A program made the translations under genes and the position numbers. Source: Gemmatimonadota bacterium (GTDB lineage: Bacteria > Gemmatimonadota > Gemmatimonadetes > Gemmatimonadales > GWC2-71-9). From it: a DNA stretch of 64,000 nucleotides. Numbering within the stretch: the first letter of the stretch is position 1; every line of letters begins with the position of its first letter. Of the stretch, positions 5,101-12,775 are shown in pieces. The stretch covers positions 1 through 64,000 of the forward strand of contig QHUZ01000052.1 of NCBI GenBank assembly GCA_003223395.1. Direction: 5' to 3'. The notes beneath the pieces were generated by a model that did not search any database, was not told the origin of the DNA, and saw only the letters and a list, made by a program, of their open reading frames with translations.

Positions 5101-6583
5101 CCATGCTCCAGATGGCATCTTTGCCTTCAGCCGCCATGGGCGAGATCACGAAGCGCAGATCTTCGTGGCTGTACCCGAACGCGTGCTGCCGTGCCGTCAA
5201 CTCTTCCGCGGGAAGCACCGGGCCCAGGCGTCCGACCTCGGTCGGCAGCTGCCGGATCGCGCGCGACGTCCAGCGGCGATACGGGCAGCGCTGCGCGACC
5301 TCGAGCTTTGCGTCCGCGCTGCGGAGTACGACGTTGCGGAGCGTATCGACCACGAGCAGCTCGCCGGGACCGAGCCGGCCGGATTCGACGACGGTCGCCG
5401 GATCGAGGTCGACCACGCCGACTTCGGATGCGGCGACGACGATGTTGTCGCGGGTCACCTTGTAGCGGCAGGGACGGAGCCCGTTGCGATCGAGCGCCGA
5501 GCCGGCGACGACGCCGTCGCTGAAGGCGAGCGCCGCGGGGCCGTCCCAGGGCTCCATCAGCCCCGCGTGATACTCGTAAAAGCTCCGCAGCGCGGGATGC
5601 ATGTCGGGAACGCGTTCCCACGCTTCCGGCAGCAGCATCATGAGCGCGTGCACGGGATCGCGGCCCGAGCGGACGAGGAGCTCCAGCGCGTTGTCGAGAC
5701 TCGTGGAATCGCTGCCGTCCGCCCAGATGACGGGCTTGAGCTGCTCGACGTCTCGGTCCCACACCGGCGCGGCGAGCGCCGGTTCGCGCGCGAGCATCGC
5801 ATTGCGGTTGCCCCACAGCGTATTGATCTCGCCGTTGTGGGCGAGCAACCGGAACGGCTGGGCGAGCGGCCAGCTCGGCAGCGTGTTGGTCGAGTAGCGC
5901 TGGTGGAAGACAGCGATGCCGGTCTCGAACAGCGGCGAGCGCAGGTCGGCGTAGAAGCCCGGCAACTCGGTGCCGACGAGCAGCGCCTTGTAGACGACGG
6001 TGCGGCATGAGAGCGAGCACACGAAGACGGGCAGCCCGGCGCTCGCGGCCCGCCGCTCGATCACGCGGCGCGCCAGATAGAGGCGCCGCTCCCACGCTTG
6101 GGCATTCGCGGGGCCGGACGGGGGGCCGACGAACACCTGGCGGATGGCCGGCTGGTTCGCCGCGGCGAGCGGGCCGAGCACGGTGGCGTCGACCGGCACG
6201 ACGCGCCAGCCGAGCACGGACATGCCCAGGCCGACGAGCACGGTTTCGATGAGGTCGATCGCCGCGTCGCGGGCACGCGCCGATGGTGGCAGGAAGAACA
6301 TGCCGAGCGCGACGCGCTCGACCGGCCCGACGCCAAGCAGGCGGTGCGGGATCTGCGTCAGGACGCCGGCGCCGTCGCCCGACTTGTCGTTGGAGGCGGC
6401 GCCGCGGTGGGCGAGCCGCGCGACGGCGGTGAGCGCCATCGCCAGGATGTCGTTGGTGCGTTCGCCGTCCGCGCGCGCGACGAAGCCGACGCCACACGCG
6501 TCGCGCTCGCGCCAGGGATCGAGCAAACGAAAAGCCCGCTCTGCTGAGGGAGCGGGCTGGCTGAGTTCGCGCTTTCTTGTCAC
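2189..6583 (-). CDS. gltB: Glutamate synthase, large subunit
   Basis: Transfers the glutamine amide to 2-oxoglutarate to give glutamate. Domains in order: an N-terminal Ntn glutaminase whose nucleophile Cys is in DACGVGF, a central domain, an FMN barrel (GHNGGTGASPLSSIKHAG), a 3Fe-4S motif (CHLNSCPTG) and a C-terminal beta-helix (GGSHVLLGNTALYGATSG). The GTG start at 6583 gives 29 residues before the nucleophile and would place a terminator-like hairpin inside the coding sequence. A TTG at 6526 gives MLDPWRERDACGVGF, closer to the short leaders of most bacterial GltB proteins, and is a credible alternative. The stop overlaps glnK. No gltD small subunit lies beside it, so the electron donor is encoded elsewhere or is a ferredoxin. 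Confidence 0.95.
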   Translation of the reverse strand: MTRKRELSQPAPSAERAFRLLDPWRERDACGVGFVARADGERTNDILAMALTAVARLAHRGAASNDKSGDGAGVLTQIPHRLLGVGPVERVALGMFFLPPSARARDAAIDLIETVLVGLGMSVLGWRVVPVDATVLGPLAAANQPAIRQVFVGPPSGPANAQAWERRLYLARRVIERRAASAGLPVFVCSLSCRTVVYKALLVGTELPGFYADLRSPLFETGIAVFHQRYSTNTLPSWPLAQPFRLLAHNGEINTLWGNRNAMLAREPALAAPVWDRDVEQLKPVIWADGSDSTSLDNALELLVRSGRDPVHALMMLLPEAWERVPDMHPALRSFYEYHAGLMEPWDGPAALAFSDGVVAGSALDRNGLRPCRYKVTRDNIVVAASEVGVVDLDPATVVESGRLGPGELLVVDTLRNVVLRSADAKLEVAQRCPYRRWTSRAIRQLPTEVGRLGPVLPAEELTARQHAFGYSHEDLRFVISPMAAEGKDAIWSMGDDTPIAPLSRLPQSIYAYVRQRFAQVTNPAIDPLREERVMSLVMYLGRRGSLLAQRPGGKTLLRIEHPVLLAEEMAALRRAGGAELTTLSATWEAAAGPEELSRALEHLAQDAVAAVRRGGGATILVISDRDADKTRAPIPMLLAIGAVHQRLVQARQRIRVGLVAEAGDAWDVHHIAALFGYGAEAVHPWLALQCLRDEESSADKYRSAAEKGLLKILSKMGISTLQSYVGAQIFEAIGLGPEIIDRCFTGTASVIGGIGFKEIAEDVLTRHQSAGALPDHGRVRYRRDGEDHGWSPPLVRALQHGEYTGFVAGTRARAPAGPRDLIDFREQAPVPLEEVEPAEDIRRRFISSAMSLGALSPEAHTTLAIAMNRMHARSNSGEGGEDPATYVARGDSDRADNRIKQVASGRFGVTADYLVRADELEIKIAQGSKPGEGGQLPGHKVTDLIARLRHAVPGIPLISPPPHHDIYSIEDLAQLIHDLKQVNPTARVGVKLVAEAGVGTVAAGVAKAYADYVLISGHNGGTGASPLSSIKHAGSPWELGLAETQAILLRNGLRERIEVRTDGGLRTGRDVVIAALLGAEAFGFGTATVVALGCAMARQCHLNSCPTGIATQRADLRAKFRGTPEQVIAYFTHIAEDVRRIMASLGVRRMDDIIGRVELLQRIDRPETPRAQTLDLSALLASPAQPGQARRRTVERNVRPGIVSLDAEILEQDGTASRVIPIGNHHLTVGARIAGRLAREHGSQGPGTPLRLRFRGSAGQSFGAFTLPRMHLQLEGEANDHVGKGLCGGEIVIRPFRDAAYTGGSHVLLGNTALYGATSGRLFAAGSAGDRFAVRNSGAVAVIEGAGDHCCEYMTGGVVVVLGPVGRNFAAGMSNGIAYILDEHRLLESRCNLEMVAVSGLNSMDERVLRKLIQQHFHKSGSARARAILAHWETYRALFRKVAPPAVAVSEPVTPLQSTGSPA
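6533..6558 (-). terminator. Terminator-like hairpin at the 5' end of gltB, candidate attenuator
   Basis: On the minus strand AGCCCGCTC and GAGCGGGCT form a perfect 9-bp GC-rich stem with an 8-nt loop, followed directly by TTTTCGTTTG. This is the form of an intrinsic terminator in the same direction as gltB. It lies between the annotated GTG start (6583) and a possible TTG start (6526), about 120-145 nt downstream of a possible promoter. If the TTG is the true start, this would be a leader attenuator. If the GTG is right, the hairpin is merely coded sequence. Confidence 0.45.
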
Positions 6584-6584
6584 G

Positions 6585-6671
6585 CTATCGTGCCCCGCCG
6601 CTCCCTCGAGAGGGTCCGCCGTGAATATTCGGCATATTCGTCAGCAGCAGGACAATCGTATGTTTATGCAT
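6585..6671 (-). CDS. Possible 28-residue leader peptide upstream of gltB
   Basis: A short frame starts at ATG 6671, only a few bases after the likely transcription start, and reads MHKHTIVLLLTNMPNIHG then a Gly/Ser/Arg-rich end, stopping at TAG 6585. It precedes the terminator-like hairpin by about 27 bases. It has no obvious run of a single regulatory codon beyond TIVLLL and no clear ribosome site. I list it as a candidate because promoter, short frame and hairpin are in the order expected for attenuation. Confidence 0.2.
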   Translation of the reverse strand: MHKHTIVLLLTNMPNIHGGPSRGSGGAR

Positions 6672-6682
6672 TGTTGAACATA

Positions 6683-6711
6683 AATATGCGAAGGAGTTCG
6701 AAAGTCTGCAA
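6683..6711 (-). promoter_or_regulatory. Candidate sigma70-type promoter for gltB-glnK-amt-torF
   Basis: TTGCAG and CATATT are separated by 17 bases on the minus strand, in an AT-rich patch unlike the surrounding sequence. Transcription would begin near 6676 and give a leader of about 90-150 bases, depending on which gltB start is used. Confidence 0.4.
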
Positions 6712-6719
6712 GGGGGGGA

Positions 6720-6747
6720 GTAGGGGCGCAGCATGCTGCGCCCCTAC
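6720..6747. repeat. 28-bp perfect palindrome, copy 1 of 4
   Basis: The half site GTAGGGGCGCAGCA is followed at once by its exact reverse complement. It lies 3 bases beyond the stop of the aminomutase gene and could act as its 3' hairpin. Further copies are at 9290-9317, 49480-49507 and 56497-56524. Confidence 0.9.
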
Positions 6748-6750
6748 CGA

Positions 6751-7827
6751 TCACCCTACCAGAATCGGCTCGGGCGGTTGGGTGTAGCGGTAGGTCTTAC
6801 CCGCGTAATTCCGGAGCACGACTTCCTTGTCGGTCAGCTTGACGACGTATTCGGGGAGCAGCGGGATCTTGCCGCCGCCTCCCGGCGCATCGATCACGAA
6901 GTGCGGCACCGCCAGCCCCGAGGTCCAGCCCCGTAGCGCTCGGACGATCTCCAGCCCCTTCTGGACGGTGGTCCGGAAGTGCTCGGCGCCCGCAACCTGG
7001 TCGCACATATAGATGTAGTACGGCCGTACCCGCGCGGCGAGCAGCTTCTGCATCAGCAGCTTCATGACCTCCGGGTCGTCGTTCACGCCCTTCAGCAGCA
7101 CCGTCTGGCAGCCCAGCGGGATCCCGGCGTCGGCCAACATTCCCAGTGCTTTCACCGCAGCCGGCGTCAGCTCGTCGGGATGGTTGAAGTGCGTGTTGAT
7201 GTAGAGGGGATGGTACTGCTTGAGGATCGCGCACAGCTCGGGCGTCACCCGCTCGGGGAGGTGGCACGGGACTCGGCTCCCGATCCGCAGCACCTCCAGA
7301 TGGGGAATCGCCCGCAGCCGCTTGCAGATCTCGTCGATCCGGCGGTCCGACAGCAGCAGGGGATCGCCGCCCGACATGATGACATCGCGAATCTCCTGGT
7401 GCTCCTCGAGATAGCGGAAGGCCGATTCGAGCTGCGCCAGCGGGATCTTCTGGGGGTCGCCGACTTTGCGGCGGCGCGTGCAGAAGCGGCAGTAGGCCGC
7501 GCAGACCGGGGATACGAGAAACAGCGCCCGGTCCGGATAGCGGTGCGTGATGTTGGGGACCGGCGAGTTCGCGTCCTCCGCCAGCGAATCCACGATGCCA
7601 TCGTGGACGTCCAGCTCCTGGACGGTCGGCACGTACTGCCGCCAGATGGGGTCGCCGGGTGATTTGATGAGGTCGACCATGGCGGGGGAAATGCGGAATT
7701 CGAAGTTTTCGGCGGCTTGCCGGAGGCGGGCGATATCCCCGACGTGTTCCGCGCCGAACCGCGCGGCCAGGGCGTCGAGGGAGGCGATGCTCTTCTTGCG
7801 GAGTAGCTCTTGCCAGGTCTCCGTCAG
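6751..7827 (-). CDS. kamA: Lysine 2,3-aminomutase (KamA family radical SAM/PLP enzyme)
   Basis: Interconverts L-lysine and beta-lysine using a 4Fe-4S cluster, SAM and PLP. The cluster motif is C109-x3-C113-x2-C116 (CAAYCRFC) after THRYPDR. The PLP lysine is K320 in DAPGGGGKIP. Asp276 (YMCDQ) and Asp313 are spaced exactly like Asp293 and Asp330 of the clostridial enzyme, which hold the lysine side-chain amine; the glutamate aminomutases lack them. The first ATG (7680) would cut off conserved N-terminal sequence (ETWQELLRKKS). The frame has no ATG, GTG or TTG upstream, but a CTG at 7827 overlaps the previous stop as CTGA, with AAGGA six bases before it. Last gene of the ATP-grasp/GNAT cluster. 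Confidence 0.88.
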   Translation of the reverse strand: MTETWQELLRKKSIASLDALAARFGAEHVGDIARLRQAAENFEFRISPAMVDLIKSPGDPIWRQYVPTVQELDVHDGIVDSLAEDANSPVPNITHRYPDRALFLVSPVCAAYCRFCTRRRKVGDPQKIPLAQLESAFRYLEEHQEIRDVIMSGGDPLLLSDRRIDEICKRLRAIPHLEVLRIGSRVPCHLPERVTPELCAILKQYHPLYINTHFNHPDELTPAAVKALGMLADAGIPLGCQTVLLKGVNDDPEVMKLLMQKLLAARVRPYYIYMCDQVAGAEHFRTTVQKGLEIVRALRGWTSGLAVPHFVIDAPGGGGKIPLLPEYVVKLTDKEVVLRNYAGKTYRYTQPPEPILVG

Positions 7828-8297
7828 GTCAGATCCTTGGTATAGATCACCAGATCGTCACCGGGCGCGTAATACCCCGGGATTGTCGCGGTCCTGGTGT
7901 AGCCGCGTGTTTCATAAAACCGGCGCGTCGGTGTGTAATCGGCGCGCGAGCTGGTCTCGACGACAACCAGCCGTCTGCCGTCAGCCGTCAGCCGTGACTC
8001 GACCTCGCCCAGCAACTGCGTTCCAACGCCAGATCCTTGGCGCAGGCGATCGACCACAATCCAGTACAGATCACTCGTCGCGACAGTGCCGGGAGTTGCA
8101 CCCCAGCACGCGTACCCGACCATTTGATCGTCTTCAAATGCGCCGACGAACTGATAGTCGTCGTCTCCCGCCAGGCTCTCGTCGAGCAGCTCGACCGCGG
8201 TGGCGACCTCGTCCTCGCGGAAGAGGCCCGTCCCACGCGTCAGCCGCTCAAGCCGTGCGCGGTGCGCGTGCCCGACGGGGCGCAGCGAGCAGCTCAC
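7824..8297 (-). CDS. GNAT family N-acetyltransferase
   Basis: A 157-residue GNAT-fold protein. The acetyl-CoA site is WIVVDRLRQGSGVGTQLL (the Q-x-x-G-x-G/A loop), followed by RRFYETRGY and GYYAPGDDLVIYTKDL. GTG 8297 was chosen because the N-terminal SLRPVGHAHRARLERL looks like a genuine GNAT first strand; this overlaps the upstream ligase by 50 bases. The stop overlaps the aminomutase CTG. In this context it may acetylate an amine of a beta-lysine-containing product. It is shorter than, and not clearly the same family as, the beta-lysine acetyltransferase AblB of archaea. Confidence 0.82.
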   Translation of the reverse strand: MSCSLRPVGHAHRARLERLTRGTGLFREDEVATAVELLDESLAGDDDYQFVGAFEDDQMVGYACWGATPGTVATSDLYWIVVDRLRQGSGVGTQLLGEVESRLTADGRRLVVVETSSRADYTPTRRFYETRGYTRTATIPGYYAPGDDLVIYTKDLT

Positions 8298-9267
8298 GCG
8301 CGGCCTTCGTTCCCTGGGCCTCCCGCAACGCAAGCTCGGCGATGCGGCGGATCAGCTCCGGGTAGTCCCATCCCGCGGCTTTCGCCATGCGCGACAGGCC
8401 CGCCTCGTCGGTGAGATCGGGATTGGGATTCACTTCGAGGATCCACGCGCGGCCTGCCTCGTCCACGCGGAGGTCCACCCGGCCGTAGCCTTTCCCCTGC
8501 ATCGTGCGCCACGCCGTCTCCGCCAGCCGGCACAGCCGGTCTGCGACGCGCTGCGGGATCTGGGCGGGGCACTCCGGGCGGCTGCCGAGATCCTCGGGCG
8601 ATCCGACGTGCCACTTGGCGGCATACGTGAGGATCGGCCACGTGCCCTCGGGCATCGCACTGAAATCGATCTCGGCGACGGGGAGCGTGCGCTCGCCGAC
8701 GATCCCGACGTTGAACTCGCGGCCGGCGATGTATTGCTGCACCAGCACCTCGTCGAACTGCTCGGTCATCACGGCGATGCGCGCCTTGAGGTTCTTGCGA
8801 TCGGTGACGACGGATTGCCGGTCGAGGCCCGCGCTGGCGTCTTCGGCCGCGGGCTTCACGATGGCGGGCAATGGGAAGTCGTCGTCGATTTTTCCCTGCG
8901 CGATCGTCCAGCGCGGCACCGGCAGGCCGGCGCGCTCCAGCAGCGTGTTGGCGACCGCTTTGCGGCGGCAGGCGGACGTCGTCCACGGGCCACAGCCGGT
9001 GTACGCGATGCCGGCCAGCTCCAGCGTGCCGACGACGTGATCTTCCCATTGCGCCACACCGCGCACGCCTTCGCAGAGATTGAAGACGAGGTCGGCCCGA
9101 CGGCAGACGTTGAACCAGCGCATGTCATGCCGGACCGGAACGCGCTGTACCTGATGATTGAGGGAGATGAAGATTCGGGCGATGTGGTCCACCGCCTCCA
9201 TCACGCCGGCGACGTCCTCGGCGGTCCAGTCATCGGCGCCGGGGTCGTAGAGGATAACGACTCTCAT
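8248..9267 (-). CDS. ATP-grasp ligase resembling D-alanine-D-alanine ligase (second of pair)
   Basis: A 339-residue carboxylate-amine ligase of the ATP-grasp fold. The N-terminal region has VFNLCEGVRG and LELAGIAYTGCGP in place of the Ddl signature. The ATP-binding lysine is in PAIVKPAAEDAS, and the metal-binding end is GRVDLRVDEAGRAWILEVN then PNPDLT. It begins at ATG 9267, overlapping the stop of the first ligase (ATGA), and its 3' end overlaps the GNAT gene. Only about 30% of residues look shared with its neighbour by eye, so the two probably act on different substrates. A cell-wall Ddl is unlikely, given the partners. Confidence 0.85.
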   Translation of the reverse strand: MRVVILYDPGADDWTAEDVAGVMEAVDHIARIFISLNHQVQRVPVRHDMRWFNVCRRADLVFNLCEGVRGVAQWEDHVVGTLELAGIAYTGCGPWTTSACRRKAVANTLLERAGLPVPRWTIAQGKIDDDFPLPAIVKPAAEDASAGLDRQSVVTDRKNLKARIAVMTEQFDEVLVQQYIAGREFNVGIVGERTLPVAEIDFSAMPEGTWPILTYAAKWHVGSPEDLGSRPECPAQIPQRVADRLCRLAETAWRTMQGKGYGRVDLRVDEAGRAWILEVNPNPDLTDEAGLSRMAKAAGWDYPELIRRIAELALREAQGTKAARELLAAPRRARAPRTA

Positions 9268-10334
9268 GCCGAGAGTGCCGTTGGTGTCTGTAGGGGCTCG
9301 GCATGCTGCGCCCCTACCAGCGCCTCTGCCTCGCGGCCTGTTATCCGCCGCCACGCGATCCGAACGACGTCCTGAATGAGCTCGTCGTAGGTGTAGCCGG
9401 CGACCCGAGCCGCCTTCGGGAAGCAGGAGTTCATCGCCGGATCGGGGATGATGCCCGGCAGGGGGTTGAGCTCGACGACGTTCGGGACGCCGAAGCGGTC
9501 CACGCGCACGTCGATGCGGCACCAGTCGCGGCACCCCAGCGCGCGATACGCATCGAGCGCCACGCGCTCCGTCTCGCGGCACAGCGACTCGGCCACACCC
9601 GTCGGCGGGCACTGGAAGATCGCGAGCGGATGCTCGCGCGTGTCCCAGATCCATTTCGCCTCGTAGCCGTAGACCGGTGGCGCACCGGCGGGCAGCGTGG
9701 CGAAATCGAATCCGACGATCGGGAGGCAGCGCACGTCGCCGTTGTTGCCGAGGATCGCGACCGTGAACTCGGGTCCCGGGAGATACGTCTCGACGAGCAC
9801 CGCCTGCTGGTAGCGCTCTAGCAGGAAGGGCACGCGCTCGGCGAGCTGTGCAGCGGTCTCGCATAAGTTATTGACAAATATACCTTTACCAGACCCCTCT
9901 GCGACCGGCTTCACGAACAGCGGAAATGGCAGCGGCATACGCTCCAGGTCCGCGACGCGCTCGATGACGCGAAACGGCGCGGTCGGCACGCCGCGATACG
10001 CGAGGATCTCCTTCGTCCGTCCTTTGTGCAGTGTCAGCGCGAGTGTGAGCGGGTCGGAGCCGGTGTACGGAATGTTCAGGTACTCGCACAGCGCGGGGAC
10101 GTGCGACTCGCGACACGGCCCGTGCAATCCCTCGGCCATATTGAAGACGATGTCGGGACGGGCGAGCGAAAGTTTTTGCGGCAAGAATTCGTCGGCTTCG
10201 AGACGAACGACGGTGCCAAAGAGACCCAGAGCCTGATCGACCGCGTCGATGGTAGACGGGTCATCCCATTCTGCGTAGGCATCCGACGAGGGCGTCACGT
10301 CGGGTTTCTCGTTGTATGCGAGACCAATCCGCAT
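9264..10334 (-). CDS. ATP-grasp ligase resembling D-alanine-D-alanine ligase (first of pair)
   Basis: A 356-residue ATP-grasp protein and probably the first gene of the cluster. Features in order: DIVFNMAEGLHGP, LNIPYTGSDPLTLALTLHK, the ATP-site lysine in FVKPVAEGSGKGIF, and the metal site DVRVDRFGVPNVVELNPLPG. The start MRIGLAYNEKPD (ATG 10334) is preferred over an in-frame ATG at 10427, whose extra codons run through a repeat array. The last codons, giving GAQHAEPL, are made by a copy of the dispersed 28-bp palindrome, so this C-terminal tail was probably acquired by repeat insertion. A possible promoter lies immediately upstream. Confidence 0.86.
   Translation of the reverse strand: MRIGLAYNEKPDVTPSSDAYAEWDDPSTIDAVDQALGLFGTVVRLEADEFLPQKLSLARPDIVFNMAEGLHGPCRESHVPALCEYLNIPYTGSDPLTLALTLHKGRTKEILAYRGVPTAPFRVIERVADLERMPLPFPLFVKPVAEGSGKGIFVNNLCETAAQLAERVPFLLERYQQAVLVETYLPGPEFTVAILGNNGDVRCLPIVGFDFATLPAGAPPVYGYEAKWIWDTREHPLAIFQCPPTGVAESLCRETERVALDAYRALGCRDWCRIDVRVDRFGVPNVVELNPLPGIIPDPAMNSCFPKAARVAGYTYDELIQDVVRIAWRRITGREAEALVGAQHAEPLQTPTALSA
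9290..9317. repeat. 28-bp palindrome, copy 2, inside a coding region
   Basis: Differs from the perfect palindrome at two positions in the left half (CTCG instead of CGCA). It lies within the last codons of the first ATP-grasp gene, with its frame kept open. Confidence 0.85.
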
Positions 10335-10342
10335 GTAAGTGC

Positions 10343-10371
10343 AGAATACGAAATGATGTACAGATACGCAA
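10343..10371 (-). promoter_or_regulatory. Candidate promoter of the ATP-grasp/GNAT/aminomutase operon
   Basis: TTGCGT and TATTCT are separated by exactly 17 bases on the minus strand. The -10 hexamer ends only 8 bases before the ATG at 10334, so the transcript would be leaderless or nearly so. Confidence 0.5.
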
Positions 10372-10379
10372 GAGAGAAA

Positions 10380-10480
10380 CGTCGAGAAAAGACGGCGAAA
10401 TGAAAACCGTCGAATGAAGATCGTCAAATGAACGACGTCAAAAAGAAAACCGTCGCAAGAATCGTCGAATGAAAAACGTC
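10380..10480. repeat. Degenerate 14-bp tandem array upstream of the ATP-grasp operon
   Basis: CGTC followed by an A-rich stretch (type CGTCGAATGAA) recurs at 10380, 10408, 10422, 10436, 10451, 10463 and 10477, with spacings mostly of 12-15 bases. The array fills the gap between thyX and the candidate promoter, and its last unit overlaps the thyX stop codon. It is markedly AT-richer than the genes on either side. Confidence 0.7.
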
Positions 10481-11231
10481 AGACCTTGTGGTAGACGACG
10501 CGGGCAGCCTCGTCCTTGTCGTCCGCAGTGTAAATCTCGAAATCGGAGAAGAGCGCGCCGGCTTCGGTCTGCAGCAGTCGCAGTACTCCGATCGCCATGC
10601 GCCGGATTTCAAGCTCGGCGCCCTCGCCGCAGCGCAGCTCGAGCATCGTGCGCCACGCACGCGCGTTCCCGGAGACGACGATCTTCACCTCGGTTGCGTT
10701 CGGCAGCACGCTCCGCGCCGCTTCGCGTGCCATTTTCCGCCGGTGCACCTTGTCGGCGACCCACTCGTAGCGCTGCATCAACCCTTCGACCGCGCGCACG
10801 TAGGCGGCCTGGGCCTCGGCGACCTGCTGCTGCCATTCCTCCTCGAGCCGCGCGTCGCCGGCGACGGCGGGCGGCATGACGAACGCGGCGTGTGACTCAT
10901 CGACGTAGCGCTGCGAGATCTGCGAATACCCGAACCCCGCGCGGTGGCGCACCAGCTCGTGCGAGCAGGAGCGCGAGATCCCCTCGATGAGCAGCACGTA
11001 GACGGCGTGCTCCAGCACCGAGCCGTGACCCTGCTTCTTGATGTTCTCGAGGTATTCCGCCGTCGTCCGATTCACCGGATTGTGCTGGCTCATGTAGCAC
11101 AGCCGGCCGGCGTACTCGGCGAGACGCTCGCCGTCGCTGGCCGCACCGCGCCACTGCACCTTGAGATGCGCTGGTTCGAGGAACTGCGGACGGGCGAGCA
11201 GCGTGATGCGCGGAGCACGAAAAACTTCCAT
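10479..11231 (-). CDS. thyX: Flavin-dependent thymidylate synthase
   Basis: Makes dTMP from dUMP using FAD and methylene-tetrahydrofolate. The ThyX signature is ELVRHRAGFGYSQISQRYVD, with the RHR triad binding FAD and substrate. Other conserved pieces are LCYMSQHNP, GHGSVLEHAVY, VLPNATEVKIVVSGNARAW and LRCGEGAELEIR. At 250 residues the length is normal. The start MEVFRAPRITLLARP (ATG 11231) lies 5 bases after the oxidase stop, so the two genes are probably co-transcribed, with no obvious functional link. The dCMP deaminase at 22.9 kb supplies the same dTTP pathway. Confidence 0.95.
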   Translation of the reverse strand: MEVFRAPRITLLARPQFLEPAHLKVQWRGAASDGERLAEYAGRLCYMSQHNPVNRTTAEYLENIKKQGHGSVLEHAVYVLLIEGISRSCSHELVRHRAGFGYSQISQRYVDESHAAFVMPPAVAGDARLEEEWQQQVAEAQAAYVRAVEGLMQRYEWVADKVHRRKMAREAARSVLPNATEVKIVVSGNARAWRTMLELRCGEGAELEIRRMAIGVLRLLQTEAGALFSDFEIYTADDKDEAARVVYHKV

Positions 11232-11236
11232 CGGGG

Positions 11237-12775
11237 CTAGTGTGCCAGTTCGAGTTTCGGCGTGGCCCATGCGGCGCTGCGCTCCACTTCTCGTAGTCGC
11301 GTGGCGATGTCTTCGGGAATGACCGCGGCACCGGCACCGACCTTCAGGGCGGCCACGGGCGACCAATCAGTCGCGGGAATGATAACACCCGGGTTCAAGA
11401 TGGACAGCGGGTCGTAGGCGCGCTTCACGTCGCGAAACAGCTGCATGACCTCCGGGCCGTAGAAGCGCTCCAGGATTCCCGCGCGCAGCCGGCCCACGCC
11501 GTGTTCGCCCGACGGGACGCCGTGCAGCCGGATCAGCAGATCGGTGACGTCGTCGAACAGCCCGCGCAATGCGTCGCGCCAGCCGTCGCGCGTCGTATCC
11601 GGAAGCGCATTCACATGGACGTGCCCGTCGCCCGCGTGTCCGAAGATCGCAACCGGAATGCCGCGCCGATCCGCCACGGCCCGGAGCCCCGCCACGTACG
11701 CGCCGAGCGCGTTAAGCGGCACGCAGCCGTCTTCGACGAGCTGCAGCGACCGCTGCGTGGGAGGAAGCCGAGACAGGGCGGGGGACGCCTCGCGGCGCAC
11801 ACTCCACAGCTGCTCGAGCCCCGCACGATTGACCGCCGTCTCGACGTGTGTCACCGCCTGCTTGAGGCCGCGCACCGCGTCGTCCACGACGCCGCGCGCG
11901 GCCGCCGCCGTTTCGCGCTCAACCTCGACGAGCAGCAGGCACGCGACCTTCGGCGCGTCGGGGACGAACTGCAGCAGGGACTCATCCAGCAACTCGAGCG
12001 CGGATGGTTGCAGCGACACCAGGTGCGGCACCGCGTCGGCCATCGACTCGAGATCGGCGAATCCGAGCGCGGCACCGGCGACGTCGGGAGGAATCGGATC
12101 GAGTCGCCAATGGACCTGGGTGATGATCGCGAGCGTCCCCTCGGAGCCGATCAAGAGATCGATCTCACCGCCTGACTCGGCGAAGCGGTCGAGCGCGTAG
12201 CCGCTGGAATTCTTCCGGGTCTTGGGAAAGCGATCTGCGATGAGCCGTCTGCAGGCAGCCGTCAGCGCAAACTTTCCCCCGTTCTCCGCTCCTCGCTTCA
12301 CGAGTCTCACCGTGCCGTCTGCCTCGACAACCTCCACCGCCTCCACCCAGCTTCGGATGCTGCCGTACCGCACCGTCCGGGGGCCAGCCGCGTTCGTCGC
12401 CACCATCCCGCCACTCGTCGCGAAAGCGCCGGAGGACGGGTCCGGCGGCAGTCGCAGGCCGTACGGTTTGGCGGCGTCGTTCACTTCGGCCCAGCTGACC
12501 GACGCGCCCGCACGGGCGGTGCGGCGGTGAGGATCGATGACCAGATCGGAAAAACCGGCGCTCAAGTCCACGATGACGCCATTTCCGACGTTGCCGCCGG
12601 GCATCCCGCTTCCCGCGCCCCGGGGGATCAGTGCGAGGTGTGACTCGCGCGCCTGATGCACGAGGGCAACGACGTCGTCCTGGTTCTCCGGAATCGCGAC
12701 CGCGGTAGGCAGAATGCGGTAGATGCCCGCACCCTCAGCGTATGCCGCGCGGACACGAGCGTCAGTGAGTAACAC
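11237..12775 (-). CDS. FAD-binding oxidase, glycolate/D-lactate dehydrogenase (GlcD) family
   Basis: A 2-hydroxy acid dehydrogenase of the FAD-linked oxidase family. The N-terminal PCMH-type FAD domain carries PRGAGSGMPGGNVGNG and TSGGMVATNAAGPRTVRYG; the C-terminal cap carries FGHAGDGHVHVN, GEHGVGRLR and PLSILNPGVI. I place the start at GTG 12775 (LLTDARVRAAYAEGAGIY), matching family N-termini. A GTG at 12832 would add 19 residues of unlikely sequence and overlap the divergent DUF116 gene. No GlcE or GlcF partner is present. Likely substrates are D-lactate or glycolate, but specificity cannot be read from the sequence. Confidence 0.9.
   Translation of the reverse strand: MLLTDARVRAAYAEGAGIYRILPTAVAIPENQDDVVALVHQARESHLALIPRGAGSGMPGGNVGNGVIVDLSAGFSDLVIDPHRRTARAGASVSWAEVNDAAKPYGLRLPPDPSSGAFATSGGMVATNAAGPRTVRYGSIRSWVEAVEVVEADGTVRLVKRGAENGGKFALTAACRRLIADRFPKTRKNSSGYALDRFAESGGEIDLLIGSEGTLAIITQVHWRLDPIPPDVAGAALGFADLESMADAVPHLVSLQPSALELLDESLLQFVPDAPKVACLLLVEVERETAAAARGVVDDAVRGLKQAVTHVETAVNRAGLEQLWSVRREASPALSRLPPTQRSLQLVEDGCVPLNALGAYVAGLRAVADRRGIPVAIFGHAGDGHVHVNALPDTTRDGWRDALRGLFDDVTDLLIRLHGVPSGEHGVGRLRAGILERFYGPEVMQLFRDVKRAYDPLSILNPGVIIPATDWSPVAALKVGAGAAVIPEDIATRLREVERSAAWATPKLELAH

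Follow-up and report, generated by a model that had tools for sequence, protein, structure and literature searches.

A four-gene operon in a 64,000-nucleotide stretch of Gemmatimonadota DNA (hereafter the window) probably encodes a dedicated beta-lysine amide pathway, the product of which is likely to be intracellular and usually acetylated. The operon combines two Ddl-fold ATP-grasp ligases (lig1 and lig2) with a GNAT N-acetyltransferase and a lysine 2,3-aminomutase-type enzyme (KamA), and the co-inheritance of these genes strongly supports the conclusion that all four serve one pathway. By homology, KamA is predicted to make beta-lysine and both ligases to form amides; beyond this, we infer how the steps are ordered, what second substrate is used, which position is acetylated and what physiological role the product has. 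In the proposed scheme KamA would convert L-lysine to beta-lysine, and lig1 and lig2, acting via an acyl-phosphate, would form one amide bond each, with beta-lysine serving as acyl donor or amine, to yield a small beta-lysine amide such as a di- or tripeptide. The GNAT would in most lineages acetylate a free amine, either on the precursor or on the product, and the final molecule, a compatible solute or a polycation, would probably be retained in the cell. It may act as a compatible solute, by analogy with acetyl-beta-lysine, or it may be a polycation, as suggested by the polyamine operons described below. A more specific and decidedly tentative proposal is that paired Ddl-fold ligases make a polycation of beta-lysine, as oligo-beta-lysine or as a beta-lysyl-polyamine conjugate, an unrecognised class of intracellular small molecules that, in several phyla, would replace or accompany the classical polyamines.

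No paper describing this gene set was found in the literature searched; an earlier mention is possible in a 2009 survey of ATP-grasp gene neighbourhoods, reportedly by Iyer and colleagues. The cassette points to a widespread small molecule, apparently undescribed so far. The four-gene order is conserved across phyla and the first metabolite, beta-lysine, is clear. If the reading is correct, beta-lysine has another cellular fate besides EF-P modification, acetyl-beta-lysine and antibiotics, and database entries calling lig1- and lig2-type proteins D-Ala-D-Ala ligases need correction.

The earlier note described four overlapping minus-strand genes at 6751-10334, and the ORFs, strand and overlaps were all found where it placed them (Table 1). 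Consecutive genes overlap by ATGA (lig1/lig2, 9267-9264), by 50 bases (from the GNAT GTG at 8297 to the lig2 stop at 8248) and by CTGA (GNAT/KamA, 7827-7824). Pfam searches of the four ORFs returned two Dala_Dala_lig_C matches, one GNAT match, and Radical_SAM plus LAM_C. In the window the cassette is flanked upstream by thyX and a glcD-like oxidase gene and downstream by gltB. The CTG at 7827 is the sole start for the full-length KamA frame. Several relatives carry ATG at this position, which makes either the use of CTG as start or a recent mutation likely. Starting at an internal ATG in this frame (7680) would cut away conserved sequence.

Table 1 Features of the beta-lysine cassette in the window.
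Feature	Description	Coordinates	Strand	Length (aa)	Start or position	Basis
lig1	Ddl-fold ATP-grasp ligase	9264..10334	(-)	356	ATG start	Pfam, AF2
lig2	Second Ddl-fold ATP-grasp ligase	8248..9267	(-)	339		Pfam, AF2
GNAT	N-acetyltransferase	7824..8297	(-)	157	GTG start	Pfam
KamA	Lysine 2,3-aminomutase-type radical SAM/PLP enzyme	6751..7827	(-)	358	CTG 7827	Pfam, curated models
Promoter-like element	TTGCGT-17-TATTCT	10343..10371	(-)		Ends 8 nt before lig1 ATG	

A lig1 profile run against the genomes of named species revealed 80 loci, most of them in Gemmatimonadota and others in Kryptonia, Ignavibacteria, Melioribacter, other Bacteroidota, a deltaproteobacterium, Nitrospinota and Auribacterota; 61 of the 80 had enough downstream sequence to be evaluable. 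The carriers come from several phyla and from soil, groundwater and hot springs. Nearest among the named loci are those of Gemmatimonadota soil metagenome-assembled genomes (lig1 91% identical), and the order thyX-lig1-lig2-GNAT-KamA recurs in genomes of the same family and order. Conserved co-occurrence of the four families in this order, which the earlier note had set as a check, was borne out: lig1-lig2-GNAT-KamA is complete on one strand at 51/61 evaluable named loci, mostly of Gemmatimonadota, and in the phylum of Kryptonium, where lig1 is present in 53 of 296 sampled genomes, the full cassette has the same order and strand at 16 of the 19 evaluable sampled loci. Partial gene sets are found in Auribacterota and Nitrospinota. 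A chance arrangement of the four genes is excluded by this conservation in other genomes. Identities between the window and other phyla are 56-59% for KamA, 50-55% for lig1, 36-39% for lig2 and 36-41% for the GNAT, and the thyX, glcD-like and gltB flanks are not retained in those phyla. The surroundings vary, and among the cassette neighbourhoods examined no fifth gene recurred constantly, nor did any transporter, NRPS or export gene. As no exporter is constant beside the cassette, an intracellular product is most likely, and the secreted metabolite that had been raised as a possibility is the less likely case. Separately, at L183, L185 and L187 a lone lig1 homologue is flanked by a NusB/RsmB-like gene on one side and a gene encoding a small protein of membrane type on the other, with no lig2, GNAT or KamA gene nearby.

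Co-occurrence was also found at the level of whole genomes. Among 298 Gemmatimonadota genomes, lig2 is present in 92 and KamA in 86, with both in 82, neither in 202 and only one in 14 (Fisher p ~2e-56, a statistic that ignores phylogeny). Four genomes have KamA only, and in two of these (G225 and G299) it is on a short contig beside a GNAT gene or weak ligase sequence. The other ten have lig2 without KamA. Five of the ten, and no others of the 298, encode kamA2, a distant KamA-superfamily protein first met in the KamA slot of L052 (genome G248) (p 5e-6); in the remaining five neither KamA nor kamA2 was detected. The radical-SAM cysteines, both lysine-reading Asp residues and the PLP Lys are retained in kamA2. 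The replacement of KamA by so remote a superfamily member suggests a need of the pathway for the product of a 2,3-aminomutase, an activity that kamA2 would itself presumably have.

At L253 and L263, kamA2 is outside the cassette; it shares an overlap with a gene for an aminotransferase, and a GntR-type regulator is encoded close by (identities read from sequence). This arrangement could indicate lysine catabolism and counts against the pathway reading. Lysine fermentation is known to be entered through lysine 2,3-aminomutase (LAM), and a catabolic route via beta-lysine with the other genes hitch-hiking would draw on this and on the aminotransferase beside kamA2 in some genomes; it is nevertheless very improbable, as the cassette contains no catabolic genes and the overlap with two ATP-consuming ligases is conserved across phyla.

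The residues that the earlier note had assigned in KamA (C109/C113/C116, D276, D313 and K320) are all confirmed in the 358-residue frame. The protein aligns over 316 residues with the LAM of Clostridium subterminale (2a5h), the sole solved relative found, and the CxxxCxxC cysteines, the PLP Lys and both lysine-reading Asp residues (D293/D330 equivalents) are kept by all cassette KamAs read, across phyla. Against curated models KamA scores 439 bits for lysine 2,3-aminomutase, 393 for glutamate, 318 for arginine and 233 for EpmB; the first is below the TIGR03820 equivalog cut-off of 525 bits and still the best of all the aminomutase models. LAM_C is matched over only positions 2-58 of 127, indicating a shortened C-terminal domain. 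A shortened domain is also found in YjeK/EpmB (PMC2821294), and is the feature that would favour a role for KamA in EF-P beta-lysylation. The chance of such a role is negligible, given the far lower EpmB score, and it is ruled out by two features of the source genome. EpmA was not found there, the sole strong match to the model being a full-length LysRS of 495 aa encoded beside prfB, and the single EF-P reads PGNL, with Asn for Lys34, where modified EF-Ps read PGKG (PMC2821294). KamA is LAM-like.

Both ligases are predicted with good confidence by AF2 (pLDDT 86.6 for lig1 and 88.6 for lig2), and the nearest solved folds of both are Ddl. A cell-wall variant, in which the ligases would produce either a modified D-Ala-D-X terminus or a crossbridge of beta-lysine, has this fold in its favour. 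The scores, however, are 164 and 149 bits against a Ddl family cut-off of 243. Aligned to Escherichia coli DdlB, for which we take the residue roles (ATP/Mg, catalytic and D-Ala site) from general knowledge of Ddl, both proteins keep K97, K144, E187, K215, R255, D257, E270 and N272. In every cassette sequence aligned, both have lost the E15 motif and carry H63 -> E and Y216 -> W; lig1 retains S281 behind a four-residue insertion, while lig2 has S150A, G276D (Cys in L095) and S281A. In the maximum-likelihood tree lig1 (97/84) and lig2 (97/94) each form a clade of their own, apart from true Ddl (100/100), with two exceptions: one duplicated label for L106, and another ligase of the source genome on the lig2 side with a long branch. 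The true Ddl of the source genome is on another contig (L119). On their sequences, lig1 and lig2 are not the cell-wall enzyme, since the D-Ala-site residues are changed, the clades are separate and the true Ddl is elsewhere; a main role as cell-wall Ddl was accordingly rejected. The cassette also contains no mur/pbp genes, and the cell-wall variant is hardly credible, in agreement with the lesser likelihood first given to it. The new acidic and aromatic residues in the substrate sites would suit an amine-bearing substrate. A Ddl-like ligase of the source genome (L118:1771-2769) lies outside the cassette beside a zinc-ribbon protein gene.

The GNAT had no match to the beta-lysine acetyltransferase (AblB) model among the curated models; its best match is RimI-type and below the cut-off, and among solved chains it comes closest to 2r7h (E 1.4e-33), which is named a 'putative D-alanine N-acetyltransferase'. 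Judged from these comparisons, it is not AblB. AblA and AblB make the compatible solute N-epsilon-acetyl-beta-lysine (PMC12776343). The cassette might encode such a solute pathway, with AblA joined to an unrelated acetyltransferase and the ligases as accessories, given that KamA is closest to AblA/LAM and that the KamA and GNAT genes are usually adjacent. We regard this as improbable: besides the lack of an AblB match, the region has no riboswitch or other Rfam match, and lig1-lig2 is the most constant part of the cassette, the two genes adjoining at 60 of the 61 evaluable named loci, and the GNAT is absent from 5/61. From these frequencies the ligases appear central, and acetylation would be common and not universal. 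The core of the earlier note's proposal, a beta-lysine pathway with two non-cell-wall ligases and a GNAT, is supported, and none of the three outcomes that the note named as refuting it was observed: the genes are conserved together, the ligases do not cluster with true Ddl, and the aminomutase is LAM-like in a genome with no EpmA and an EF-P without Lys34. The exact product is the part that does not follow.

Evidence against the pathway reading with KamA comes from the phylum to which the deltaproteobacterial locus L103 (a "Deltaproteobacteria" metagenome-assembled genome) belongs. There, lig2 adjoins lig1 at all 12 of the strong lig1 loci retrieved, and KamA is a neighbour at three; at seven (L218-L221 and L225-L227) the ligase pair follows a pyruvoyl arginine decarboxylase (PvlArgDC) gene, with polyamine genes in place of a neighbouring KamA. 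These seven arginine-to-putrescine loci mostly include agmatinase-family and deoxyhypusine-synthase-family genes, as does L103, and a methyltransferase gene comes after in most. In G312, the only such genome looked at, KamA is located elsewhere. In favour of the pathway, KamA is also linked to divergent ligase homologues at L230, L231 and L236; at the first two of these a single stretch combines a divergent lig1 with genes for a PAS histidine kinase and a sigma-54 response regulator, KamA and lig2. A third, RimK-like ATP-grasp gene was observed at L221.

These loci raise the alternative of a polyamine conjugate, in which the ligases would couple a polyamine (putrescine, homospermidine or agmatine) to an amino acid, whether (beta-)lysine or a different one, KamA would supply one acyl donor, and the GNAT and, in some lineages, a methyltransferase would decorate the product. 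The new invariant acidic and aromatic residues in the substrate sites of both ligases are also in its favour. It is nonetheless rather unlikely, as none of the cassette neighbourhoods inspected in Gemmatimonadota and in the Kryptonium phylum has an adjoining polyamine gene, and PvlArgDC is absent from 59 of the 92 lig2-positive Gemmatimonadota genomes, including all those of family f2. A dependence on PvlArgDC in Gemmatimonadota was rejected on the same count.

Upstream of lig1, a putative promoter (TTGCGY-17-TATTCT) ends 8-9 nt 5' of the ATG in 12 of 13 same-genus sequences, that of the window included. It scores under the threshold of a generic consensus scan. The element suggests that the operon has its own promoter, with a predicted leaderless mRNA. 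An Rfam search of 6400-11400 gave no match and no riboswitch, and riboswitch control of the operon was rejected. Two sets of repeats were also observed. A REP-like palindrome, GTAGGGGCGCAGCATGCTGCGCCCCTAC, with close variants, occurs in four copies in the window (9290-9317, 6720-6747, 49480 and 56497); the first is within the 3' end of lig1, where it extends the protein by a disordered tail of low pLDDT (residues 340-356), and the second is directly 3' of kamA. Degenerate repeats of ~13 bases (TTTTCATTCGACG-like) lie at 10370-10480 between thyX and lig1, and were not seen in the corresponding intergenic stretches of L032-L034.

The cassette has features in common with four known systems. The N-acetylglutaminylglutamine amide pathway makes a peptide solute by ATP-grasp ligation and N-acetylation, as proposed here for the beta-lysine amide, and differs in having no known aminomutase and a different ligase; the cassette in turn has no asnO-like gene. 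With DdlA/DdlB, lig1 and lig2 share the ATP-grasp fold and the ATP and Mg residues, and they differ in the substrate-site changes given above and in their separate clades. Like EpmB of the EpmA/EpmB system, KamA is a KamA-superfamily aminomutase without the full C-terminal domain, although it is closer to LAM, and the source genome has no EpmA and an EF-P without Lys34. The AblA/AblB pathway likewise has a lysine 2,3-aminomutase-type enzyme and a GNAT. In contrast to AblA/AblB, no salt-linked regulation was found for the cassette, its GNAT is not of the AblB type, the C-terminal domain of its KamA is shortened and two Ddl-fold ligases are at its centre.
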